Virus record (IMG/VR): IMGVR_UViG_3300042474_000451 | Span: 1-37,002 of that record | DNA: 37,002 nt | Reading direction: 5' to 3' (one strand) | DNA from: a virus | In this document: positions 7,616 through 15,794 of the stretch, piece after piece | Position numbering within the stretch: the first letter of the stretch is position 1 | Layout of the letters: the number at the start of each line of letters is the position of its first letter | Program-made: the position numbers and the translations under genes | The notes under the pieces: generated by a model | What the model was told of the DNA's origin: nothing | The model's database searches: none | Seen by the model: only the letters and a program-made list of their open reading frames with translations

Positions 7616-7914
7616 CACCTCCTAACTGCATCAAGATAGTATTTAGTACTAATCAGCATAGTTATCGTGTATCATCGCAACATCCATTCTTTTTGCATAC
7701 TACTGAGGTGCTTACATCGTATCGCAATGGTGTGCTGACCATAACAAGACCAACGATTGACTATCAAGGAAAGACATATAGAGTGTGTGTACCAAAGTCA
7801 TCTCGTGACCATCGGTTATTCCATATTGCCATATCGCAAAATGTACCACTTGGAGTGTTTGAGATTGATGAGGAAGAAAGCAATGAAGATAAGTTGGTGA
7901 TATATTTGGAGTGA
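7612..7914 (+). CDS. Hypothetical protein ending at attC-like site
   Basis: This is a 100-residue product with no recognised motif, likely beta-rich at the N-terminus and with an acidic C-terminus. It is coupled to the exonuclease by ATGA. Its TGA stop is the first three bases of the TGATAAC box of the folded site at 7912-7964. Confidence 0.65.
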   Translation: MTPPNCIKIVFSTNQHSYRVSSQHPFFLHTTEVLTSYRNGVLTITRPTIDYQGKTYRVCVPKSSRDHRLFHIAISQNVPLGVFEIDEEESNEDKLVIYLE

Positions 7915-7964
7915 TAACGGTCAGCTACAAGCAGTGCCTCATTGCTTTGTAGCGCAAGTTATTA
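7912..7964 (+). repeat. attC-like folded site A
   Basis: The arrangement is box TGATAAC (7912-7918), a 5-base spacer, arm GCTACAAGCAGTG (7924-7936), a 3-base loop, arm CATTGCTTTGTAGC (7940-7953), a 4-base spacer, and box GTTATTA (7958-7964). The outer boxes pair with each other. The long arms pair with one extrahelical base. This R''-L''-L'-R' order with unpaired spacers and a bulge is the architecture of integron attC sites, although GTTATTA deviates from the GTTRRRY consensus. A terminator-like hairpin is the main alternative, but there is no T run. Confidence 0.5.
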
Positions 7965-7996
7965 CATATTAAATAACACATTAAAAAACATACAAA

Positions 7997-8425: not shown

Positions 8426-8783
8426 AATACTTATAGACATCGCAACAGGGTTAAACATCCCAATCAAGAAAATTCAAGATAGTGGACGAGGAACTTTTGA
8501 CATCGCAACGGCAAGACATTTGTTTTGTTTCATAGCTTACGAGAATGGTTACAACCTTTCCGAAATAGGTAGATTTCTTTCGTATCGTGACCACACAACT
8601 ATCATTAATTCGATTAAAGTTGTGAATAATATGAAAGACACACAAGATGCTCTTTACGAGAGATTTGTTACCTTGCTAAGACATAATGCGCCAAACTTGA
8701 AAACATCCTTGTATGAGCCTCGTAGGAGGTATAGTGGGGATTGTTGTATCATCAGTAGGTTTGAGATAGTCAAGTGCAGGTAA
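8418..8783 (+). CDS. DnaA domain IV-like DNA-binding protein
   Basis: The 121-residue product contains only the C-terminal DNA-binding domain of the initiator DnaA. The signature is visible: TARHLFCFIAYENGYNLSEI, then GRFLSYRDHTT (RDHTT at 57-61), then a basic helix. In DnaA this domain recognises DnaA boxes. There is no AAA+ ATPase domain. A stand-alone domain in a phage might recruit or antagonise host initiation, or act as a regulator. The TAA stop lies inside the box at the left edge of site B, so the gene ends exactly at the folded site. The last roughly 30 residues are not part of the DnaA domain. Confidence 0.8.
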   Translation: MDRILIDIATGLNIPIKKIQDSGRGTFDIATARHLFCFIAYENGYNLSEIGRFLSYRDHTTIINSIKVVNNMKDTQDALYERFVTLLRHNAPNLKTSLYEPRRRYSGDCCIISRFEIVKCR

Positions 8784-8869
8784 CGGTTGAGGCTAAGAGC
8801 AGTTGCCTAAAATACTGCTCAAAATATGCACTATGCTTGATGGCAATTGCTTTTAGCCTTTGTTAGCGG
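8777..8869 (+). repeat. attC-like folded site B
   Basis: Box CAGGTAAC (8777-8784) is followed by a 6-base spacer and arm GGCTAAGAGCAGTTGCC (8791-8807). A 34-base loop separates it from arm GGCAATTGCTTTTAGCC (8842-8858), which is followed by TTT and box GTTAGCGG (8862-8869). The 17-bp stem pairs completely if two G-T pairs are allowed. A second possible hairpin (GAGCAGT with ACTGCTC) lies within. The order of boxes and arms is that of an attC site, and the long loop is within the range known for attC. Confidence 0.6.
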
Positions 8870-9935
8870 CTGCTGCGGTAAAATTTAAAATAATGATTTT
8901 AGAAATAGAAAACCTTTTTGGCGAAAAAAAACAAGAGCAATACAAACCTGAAAGAGAGAGTTTGCAAAAAGAATTGTCGTTAATCTTTAATAATGATTTG
9001 ACATTAGAAAAATTAGTAAATTTTATTACTAATGATTTTTCTGAAACATTAGAATATCATCAATTATGCTTTGGGTTAAGTTCTTGCCAAAAAACAAGTC
9101 TTTTATTTAACCCGCATAGACTGGACACTAAAGCAGGTAAAAGTAAAATGAGTTGCTTCGAAGCATTAAAAAACTATAATTTTCTTAATGGTTTATCAAG
9201 AATGATTTTGCACGAAAGGAAACAAAAAGGAGATAATTATAAAAGCAGATATGGAGAACTTCTATATCAAATATTAGCTTTTAATATAAATGGCGTTCAA
9301 TATGTAAATGAAATACATCCTTTAATATCAAGAAATTTAGCTTTAAAATATTGCAATGGATTAAATTCAAAAGTTTTAGATCCGTGTGCTGGATGGGGTG
9401 GCAGAATGATTGGATTTAGTACAGTTGTTAAAGAATATTATGGATTTGAACCATACACTAAAACTTACAACGGCTTAAATAAACTTGGTAATTGGATAAA
9501 AGAAAGAAACGAATACTTTAATTTTAAAATTGAAAATTTACCATTTGAAGATGCAGTAATAGAACACAATGAATTTGACTTTGCATTTACAAGCCCCCCA
9601 TATTATGATACAGAAAAATATGGCAATGAAAAAACAAACTCGTACAATAGATATAAATCATTTAATGATTGGTGTGATTTGTTTTATTTACCTATGATAC
9701 AAAAAACAATGAACGCATTAAAAAAAGACTGTTCATTTGTTTTAAATATAGGCAGTAGAGTTTACCCATTAAATGAAGTTTTAAAAAGTAATTTTTCAAA
9801 CAAATACTTAATTGAAAATGAAAAAGATATGTTACAAGGGAAAAAGTCAGGACTTAAAGATAACTCAAACGAAGGCGAAACTTTTTATAGGATAGTAAAG
9901 TAGCAGTTGCCGCTAACTCATCGCTACACGCTACG
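8863..9935 (+). mobile_element. Putative integron-type gene cassette carrying a DNA methyltransferase
   Basis: The unit runs from TTAGCGG (after the G of site B) to the G of GTTATAGC in site C and contains one gene. In integrons a cassette's own attC begins with a box that is the reverse complement of the cassette's own first bases. Here CCGCTAAC in site C (9910-9917) is the perfect reverse complement of GTTAGCGG in site B (8862-8869). The gene between is clearly more AT-rich than its surroundings: 9001-9060 has 10 G/C in 60 bases, while 7021-7080 has 21. No integrase is encoded, so mobilisation would have occurred in trans. This is an inference from structure. Confidence 0.5.
8893..9903 (+). 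CDS. DNA methyltransferase, amino (N6-adenine or N4-cytosine) type
   Basis: The 336-residue product has the SAM-binding motif DPCAGWGGRM (residues 163-172) and the catalytic motif TSPPYYDTEKY (233-243). S-P-P-Y is characteristic of amino methyltransferases, so the product is m4C or m6A. The order (SAM motif, then catalytic motif) matches several N4/N6 groups. Residues 1-140 are a separate helical region of unknown role. I chose the ATG at 8893 because the possible TTG at 8860 would lie inside the site B box. The gene is unusually AT-rich and stands alone between sites B and C. It probably protects phage DNA from host restriction. Confidence 0.85.
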   Translation: MILEIENLFGEKKQEQYKPERESLQKELSLIFNNDLTLEKLVNFITNDFSETLEYHQLCFGLSSCQKTSLLFNPHRLDTKAGKSKMSCFEALKNYNFLNGLSRMILHERKQKGDNYKSRYGELLYQILAFNINGVQYVNEIHPLISRNLALKYCNGLNSKVLDPCAGWGGRMIGFSTVVKEYYGFEPYTKTYNGLNKLGNWIKERNEYFNFKIENLPFEDAVIEHNEFDFAFTSPPYYDTEKYGNEKTNSYNRYKSFNDWCDLFYLPMIQKTMNALKKDCSFVLNIGSRVYPLNEVLKSNFSNKYLIENEKDMLQGKKSGLKDNSNEGETFYRIVK

Positions 9936-9942
9936 TTATAGC
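9910..9942 (+). repeat. attC-like folded site C (short)
   Basis: Box CCGCTAAC (9910-9917) is followed by a short partly self-complementary segment containing CGCTAC and GCTACG, then box GTTATAGC (9935-9942). CGCTAAC and GTTATAGCG pair apart from a two-base bulge. The site begins 6 bases after the methyltransferase stop. It is shorter and less regular than sites A and B. Its main support is that CCGCTAAC is the exact reverse complement of the site B box. Confidence 0.45.
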
Positions 9943-9996
9943 GCATAGCATAACATAACAACATAAACAAGCTGTGATTCAGCAACCATATACAAA

Positions 9997-13373: not shown

Positions 13374-13411
13374 AACTCATAGTCCAGTTAGGACTAACAA
13401 TAGAAAGATGA
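13199..13411 (+). CDS. Small hypothetical protein coupled to the C5 methyltransferase
   Basis: The 70-residue frame starts 12 bases after the primase stop and ends in an ATGA overlap with the methyltransferase gene. That arrangement is the usual coupling in this genome and favours this frame over the one at 13143. The product is polar, without motif, and partly low in complexity. Confidence 0.45.
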   Translation: MSTSKPIILRHTRTFDLVTTEGFNLTQDRQDEPPRSGTGEFTIPTTLNAMSQRNENLIKLIVQLGLTIER

Positions 13412-14061
13412 AAGTACTAAATTTATATGCTTGTTTAGGTGGCAACCGATACAAGTGGGATGAAGTAGCCAATATTGAAGTAACTGCGGTTGAACTTGAC
13501 CCTGAAGCAGCAAGACTTTATCAAGAAAGGTTTCCAAATGATAATGTAATTGTAGCAGATGCACACCAATACTTATTAGACCACTTTAAAGAGTTTGATT
13601 TTATTTGGAGTTCGCCACCTTGCCCAAGCCATAGCAAAGTAAGAATAAGTCAAAAAAATAGAGAAACTTTTAAATTCATTTATCCTGATATGAAACTTTA
13701 TGAAGAAGTAATTTTCTTAGATAATTTCTTTGATGGTAAATATGTAGTTGAAAATGTAACACCCTACTATGAGCCATTAATACCAGCTAAAAAACGAGGT
13801 AGGCATTTATATTGGACTAATTTTAATTTGCCGAATGATTTAAAAGAAAGAAAACTTGATGGAACTTTGACAAATATGGTTGATGAAATTGGAACATTAT
13901 CTAAATTTCACGATTACGATTTTAGAAAATATAAAGGAGAACAAAGCACTACTAAAATGGCTCGTAATCTTGTTGATTATGAAGCAGGTAAAACAATATT
14001 TGCAACTGCTTTAGGAATAATGATACAATCTAACACTACTCAAAAACAACTATTCCAATGA
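13408..14061 (+). CDS. DNA cytosine-5 methyltransferase (short phage form)
   Basis: The 217-residue product has the C5-methyltransferase motifs: a SAM site near the N-terminus (LNLYACLGGNRYKW), VELDPEA (28-34), the catalytic PPCPS with Cys72, ENV (115-117), RHLYWTNF, and a closing ARNLVDYEAGKTIFATALG like motifs IX-X. The length is short for the family, leaving little room for a target-recognition domain, which is seen in compact phage enzymes. It is coupled on both sides by ATGA overlaps. It transfers a methyl group to C5 of cytosine in phage DNA, probably against restriction. Its later half is more AT-rich than its neighbours. Confidence 0.88.
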   Translation: MKVLNLYACLGGNRYKWDEVANIEVTAVELDPEAARLYQERFPNDNVIVADAHQYLLDHFKEFDFIWSSPPCPSHSKVRISQKNRETFKFIYPDMKLYEEVIFLDNFFDGKYVVENVTPYYEPLIPAKKRGRHLYWTNFNLPNDLKERKLDGTLTNMVDEIGTLSKFHDYDFRKYKGEQSTTKMARNLVDYEAGKTIFATALGIMIQSNTTQKQLFQ

Positions 14062-15452: not shown

Positions 15453-15656
15453 ATGGACATAACACTCTGCAAGGGCAACAACTGCCCAATGAAAAAACAA
15501 TGTAAGCGGTACACATATAAACCTGACTTTCCAATGTACCAATCTTACTTCACGGAATCTCCAATTAAGGATGGCAAATGTGAGATGTTTTGGGGAGATA
15601 AGGCTGATGAGATTATGGAACAGTTAAACAAGATAGTAAGAGGTGAGCAGAAATAA
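15453..15656 (+). CDS. Small cysteine-motif protein
   Basis: The 67-residue product begins with a four-cysteine arrangement: CKGNNCPMKKQCKRY and a later Cys at about residue 43. This suggests a small zinc ribbon or metal-binding fold, followed by an acidic helix. It is a small conserved-looking type of protein, function unknown. Confidence 0.7.
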   Translation: MDITLCKGNNCPMKKQCKRYTYKPDFPMYQSYFTESPIKDGKCEMFWGDKADEIMEQLNKIVRGEQK

Positions 15657-15794
15657 ACAAATGCGCCTACACATCAGTACAATATAGCGAAGAATAAGTG
15701 TGTCAGCGTATTGATGGTGTAGTAATTCGATGATGTTAGCGGTTTTAACACTTTCCTACTAACGGAGAAAAAGCGCAGTTGTTTATTACTTTTA
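15657..15794. other. Non-coding region with imperfect inverted repeats and GTTAGCGG
   Basis: CTACACATCA near 15667 and TGATGGTGTAG near 15711 can pair with one bulge. A GTTAGCGG (15735-15742), identical to the site B box, follows, and CTAACGG occurs near 15758. The layout is reminiscent of the folded sites at 7912-9942, but spacers are too long and no matching CCGCTAAC is present, so I do not call it an attC-like site. No gene is visible. Confidence 0.35.

Follow-up and report, generated by a model that had tools for sequence, protein, structure and literature searches.

A probable integron-type methyltransferase cassette, inverted relative to its attC site, in a freshwater phage

We analysed a 37,002-nucleotide stretch of viral DNA (hereafter the window; IMG/VR record IMGVR_UViG_3300042474_000451) from a freshwater phage and find that in all likelihood it holds an integron-type gene cassette at 8784-9916. 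This cassette is joined at a resident half-site, site C, probably through a recombinase of the host; it is inverted relative to its attC site and is swapped at two hot spots. The features to which the text refers are as follows, all on the + strand.

8776..8870, +: attC site B, with core boxes TAAC (8781-8784) and GTTAGCGG (8862-8869) and stem AGGCTAAGAGCAGTTGCC / GGCAATTGCTTTTAGCCT
8784..9916 (approximate), +: mobile cassette unit (upstream hairpin and methyltransferase), 1133 bp, bounded by TAA^C in site B and TAA^C in site C
8893..9903, +: DNA methyltransferase, 336 aa, motifs DPCAGWGGR and TSPPYYD, predicted N6-adenine/N4-cytosine type
9910..9917, +: box CCGCTAAC, which complements the core box of site B and is joined to resident site C
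9918..9949, +: resident half-site C, spacer TCATC and 11-bp hairpin GCTACACGCTA/TAGCGCATAGC, no GTT core box after it
7911..7965, +: resident site A, the second hot spot, consisting of GTGATAAC, a hairpin and GTTATTAC; empty in the window

As described in an earlier note on this DNA, the methyltransferase gene is AT-rich, with 27% GC where the window has 37%, and its stop codon (9901-9903) lies 6 bases 5' of the box CCGCTAAC. The protein matches PHROG DNA methyltransferases as well as the Pfam family N6_N4_Mtase, the latter with E=1e-4 and 22.8 bits, below the curated cut-off of 26.7, and with the SPPY motif seen. One homologue in IMG/VR, 81% identical, is located outside any cassette in contig L002, and a separate row of cassette-like units lies 3' of the terminase in that same contig. 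A search of bacterial genomes for a close relative of the protein found none, and a search of deposited phages revealed no DNA similarity to the window. The predicted structure of the methyltransferase (pLDDT 37) was discarded as evidence. A second DNA methyltransferase, of C5 type, is found at 13408-14061, outside any recognised cassette. The Phage_integrase profile gave no match in the window or in the 7 relatives tested; a tyrosine recombinase is present in 7 of 27 other cassette-bearing viral contigs.

The core boxes at 8862-8869 and 9910-9917 are exact reverse complements over 8 bp, just as the earlier note had claimed, and complementarity of 8-13 bp across the gene also occurs in other cassettes of relatives. 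We rejected this box pair as sole evidence for a cassette since the 8-mer GTTAGCGG is present in five copies in the window. However, the + strand of site B, taken as single-stranded DNA, forms a hairpin whose fold beats 200 of 200 shuffles (z -3.2). In addition, we built our own covariance model, R1, for which 38 bacterial (Bacteroidota) attC sites were the sole training set. R1 recognises site B at 8776-8870 on the + strand with 51.4 bits (E=4e-11) as opposed to 11.7 bits on the − strand, and finds nothing credible over the rest of the window, where the next-best place has E=2.5. The attC score above background that the earlier note had proposed to seek with IntegronFinder or HattCI was thus obtained with R1 instead. 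R1 also matches cassettes of relatives. Site B carries G.T wobbles where classical attC sites carry extrahelical bases, and attC sites of this type have a conserved G.T/C.A asymmetry in place of bulges. Sites A and C were considered as complete attC sites and rejected, as R1 recognises neither. The copy of GTTAGCGG at 15735 was likewise ruled out as an attC site, by its fold and by R1; it belongs to an intergenic inverted repeat at 15649-15790 (89% over 18 nt).

Scans with the primase, the single-strand-binding protein and a DnaA-like protein yielded about 16 close relatives covering the region, and these define the borders of the cassette. In L004, L006, L007, L084 and L091 the hot spot is empty, window position 8777 being joined to 9948, while L082 retains only the bare resident site C as the constant piece GGATAACTCATCGC...GCATAGC. 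L005, L021 and L080 carry different genes or cassettes between GGATAAC and AACTCATCGC, and half-site C is constant in these three and in L082. The junctions of relatives at this hot spot, and those in unlinked contigs, fall at TAAC, with precise gain or loss at a core crossover. The earlier note had expected breakpoints at the G/TT positions of the boxes in relatives lacking exactly 8863-9935; they do lie in the TAAC/GTTA core boxes, but what the relatives lack or replace is approximately 8784-9916, and no usable second core box is found near 9935. Three further relatives (L085, L089 and L124) have another cassette in common, with core boxes matching at 13 of 15 bases and with a different right-hand border. 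In L003 (7660-9135) the same hot spot is occupied by a different putative methyltransferase without an attC hairpin, and so the hot spot also takes genes by other means. In L082 (4555-4990) two copies of AAACAAGCTGTGATTCAGCA flank a further inserted gene; this sequence is a conserved motif of the 5' leader preceding the DUF3127 gene.

Occupancy of the second hot spot, site A, varies in the same manner among the relatives. Site A is filled in L005, L080, L084, L089, L091 and L124, with two cassettes in both L084 and L091; it holds a partly degraded cassette in L003, is empty in L021 and L085, and in L082 and L132 the hairpin is absent altogether. One cassette hairpin in L084 contains a small ORF within its loop (2771-2990).

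Cassettes of this type also occur in other backgrounds in IMG/VR, with the same bases as cut points. Contigs L236, L263 and L284 have in common a unit of 653-663 bp that is 99.85% identical and has different immediate neighbours in each. This unit starts at the TAACG before its hairpin and ends at the next TATAACG. The hairpin and the gene downstream of it thus travel as one, the outcome predicted if crossover takes place at the core box when the attC is inverted. A pattern scan of IMG/VR found 67 viral stretches containing 177 R1 attC matches, and the viral loci, where spot-checked, encode terminase, primase and helicase. Contrary to what the earlier note had supposed, such cassettes are therefore not rare in IMG/VR, and examples in phages have already been published (PMC9892861). 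L239 and L288 are two stretches of one large viral contig of 169658 bp (IMGVR 3300043411_001575) with more than a dozen cassette-like units, nearly all of phage polarity and many with methyltransferases.

A 28-base pattern from the phage hairpins was searched against 257 Gb of bacterial and archaeal genomes and returned 75 stretches, nearly all labelled Bacteroidota. The bacterial sites form arrays of up to 9 sites in 8 kb in which each core box complements the next across the gene. A search of 14 Bacteroidota genomes (L213-L226) for the integron-integrase family found nothing above its cut-off; when the regions around the best matches were fetched, 12 of these 14 recombinase regions contained attC sites, always on the same side of the recombinase. 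For eight array-associated recombinases the XerA-like family (NF040815) is the best or second-best match, at 188-222 bits, and the same eight match TIGR02249 in two pieces at 169-219 bits, against a cut-off of 265. Aligned to IntI4, the L222 recombinase has no counterpart of residues ~200-249, the IntI-specific domain, and otherwise matches, including a C-terminal SPLD as in integron integrases. Site B of the window is thus of the attC type of chromosomal Bacteroidota cassette arrays lying beside a XerA/IntI-like integrase, and Bacteroidota would appear to be the host group of the phage.

Could homologous recombination within repeated hairpins, aided by a RecE-like exonuclease, have shuffled these units between phages with no site-specific recombinase now at work? 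We consider this rather unlikely, though it is the strongest of the alternatives. The window does encode a RecE-like exonuclease, and 44 of 60 viral sites belong to one class that is near-identical over 83 nt; recombination between such hairpins could yield part of the pattern. However, units that replace one another at the two hot spots of the window are unrelated in stem and loop, having only the TAAC core in common with their target, the junctions fall at that core, and the bacterial arrays have an integrase adjacent to them.

The orientation of the genes sets the phage and bacterial cassettes apart. We scored polarity in a frame in which the hairpin reads TAACG...TGTTA, using longest-ORF gene calls and non-redundant counts. 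In viral contigs 101 cassettes are plus and 7 minus (101/108 with attC 5' of the gene), compared with 14 plus and 97 minus in bacterial contigs (14/111 inverted; Fisher p=2e-37), where a few of the minority cases may be ORF miscalls and cassettes from the same contig are only partly independent. The minus-strand genes of the bacterial arrays correspond to the classical arrangement, attC 3' of the gene; in the window cassette, by contrast, the gene follows its attC hairpin. L182 and L201, both with the 83-nt class typical of most viral sites, contribute six of the 14 bacterial plus cases. L201 (JAHEYD010000008, labelled as the archaeon Candidatus Nitrosotalea) combines attC sites of Bacteroidota type with phage polarity and a phage-type exonuclease, and is probably a mis-binned phage contig.

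These findings bear directly on the classical reading implied by the earlier note, in which the cassette would span 8863-9935 with site C, 3' of the gene, as its own attC. Core-box complementarity is symmetric and fits both readings. However, site C persists without any cassette (L082) and with other cassettes (L005, L021 and L080), the upstream hairpin travels with the gene in L236, L263 and L284, and R1 recognises site B on the + strand and not site C. The classical reading is accordingly very improbable: site C is a resident half-site and the attC is site B, which precedes the gene and is inverted with respect to it. The broader claim of the earlier note, an integron-type methyltransferase cassette in a phage without an integrase, is supported by the attC model, the borders seen in relatives and the lack of a Phage_integrase match.

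Two further explanations merit little credence. The hairpins are intergenic stem-loops, and attC hairpins can act on transcripts, so one might read them as RNA elements or terminators of transcription, with ordinary phage mosaicism behind the differences in genes; this is hard to reconcile with exact presence or absence at TAAC, complementarity across the gene, the strand preference of R1 and a search of Rfam in which the hairpins matched no family, and it is contradicted by identical units in different backgrounds. Movement by a hairpin-recognising transposase, of the IS200/IS605 or REP type in which single-strand hairpins are paired with fixed cleavage tetranucleotides, is equally hard to credit: each unit has a single hairpin, the core boxes complement each other across the gene and the arrays adjoin a tyrosine recombinase.

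We return, then, to an inverted integron-type cassette. We propose that it became linked to resident half-site C when strands were exchanged at G^TT in the core box, which reads TAA^C on the + strand, presumably with the hairpin recombining as a single strand. A tyrosine recombinase of the integron type most likely carried this out and, since the phage has no gene for one, would come from the host. The upstream hairpin travels with the gene, with the result that the inserted gene is co-oriented with the phage genes around it, and phages swap such cassettes at the two hot spots. The methyltransferase most likely methylates phage DNA against host restriction.

The cargo differs between the two pools: that of phages is mostly DNA modification, which would be expected to let phages escape restriction by bacteria, and that of bacteria is mixed. 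Among 89 viral cargo proteins we find 24 N6_N4_Mtase, 5 Mom and 4 MT-A70, together with single instances of Dam, D12, a C5 methylase, a TET-associated glycosyltransferase and the Thoeris inhibitor Tad3. Among 78 bacterial cargo proteins there are 2 C5 methylases, and the other phage cargo families are absent among the 25 listed of 79 families. The reversed viral polarity suggests that phages keep a cassette pool of their own. Two ideas may account for the reversal: first, the phage arrangement would make the recombining strand the coding strand, exposed by transcription; second, it may reflect a founder effect within a closed phage pool.

Parts of this picture have precedents. Qi et al. 2023 (PMC9892861), a study of 17 clusters, describes attC clusters without an integrase (CALINs) as well as methyltransferases in phages, among them phage P12002L, reported to infect a Polaribacter strain and to have divergent attC directions; recombination of such sites with attI1 is also reported. 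The P12002L CALIN, as described there, resembles the window cassette in its attC-type sites, its DNA methyltransferase cargo and the lack of an integrase, and P12002L gives a weak match to R1 (30.6 bits). A CALIN comprises at least two attC sites close together without an integrase, whereas R1 recognises only site B in the window. In contrast to the present analysis, the accessible text of that study does not describe a consistently inverted polarity, a comparison of empty and filled states across a population or a phage pool set apart from others.

The Bacteroidota arrays resemble sedentary chromosomal integrons in that their genes are flanked by attC, point away from an integrase at one end of the array and have core boxes that complement each other across each gene, but their integrase lies below the integron-integrase cut-off and that of L222 is without the IntI-specific domain; the phage cassettes differ from such integrons in their opposite gene polarity. 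The array recombinases likewise resemble XerA/XerC-like recombinases (NF040815), the best or second-best family for the eight scanned, but they adjoin cassette arrays, and that of L222 is IntI4-like except for the missing segment. IntegronFinder 2.0 reported few complete integrons in Bacteroidetes (PMC9024848). Within the accessible open-access literature, outside which lie most subscription journals and preprints, we found neither a consistently inverted polarity nor a XerA-like integrase beside Bacteroidota arrays in any earlier report, and the same holds for a pool of anti-restriction cassettes peculiar to phages. What is already known is that phages can carry attC cassettes with methyltransferases.

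Our wider proposal, for which we judge the case evenly balanced, is that Bacteroidota phages keep their own pool of anti-restriction cassettes. The orientation of its genes with respect to attC would keep it separate from the bacterial pool, and array integrases of the host, from the XerA-like branch without the IntI domain, would move it. The choice of attC strand has been understood as the integron's guarantee that captured genes are expressed (PMC2727003); a large phage pool of reverse polarity would be this strand rule turned round for a different transcriptional setting. Widespread Bacteroidota arrays would escape integrase-based detection, since their integrase scores under the integron-integrase cut-off and is apparently without the IntI domain, and the phage pool would offer phages a ready-made means of exchanging DNA-modification genes.
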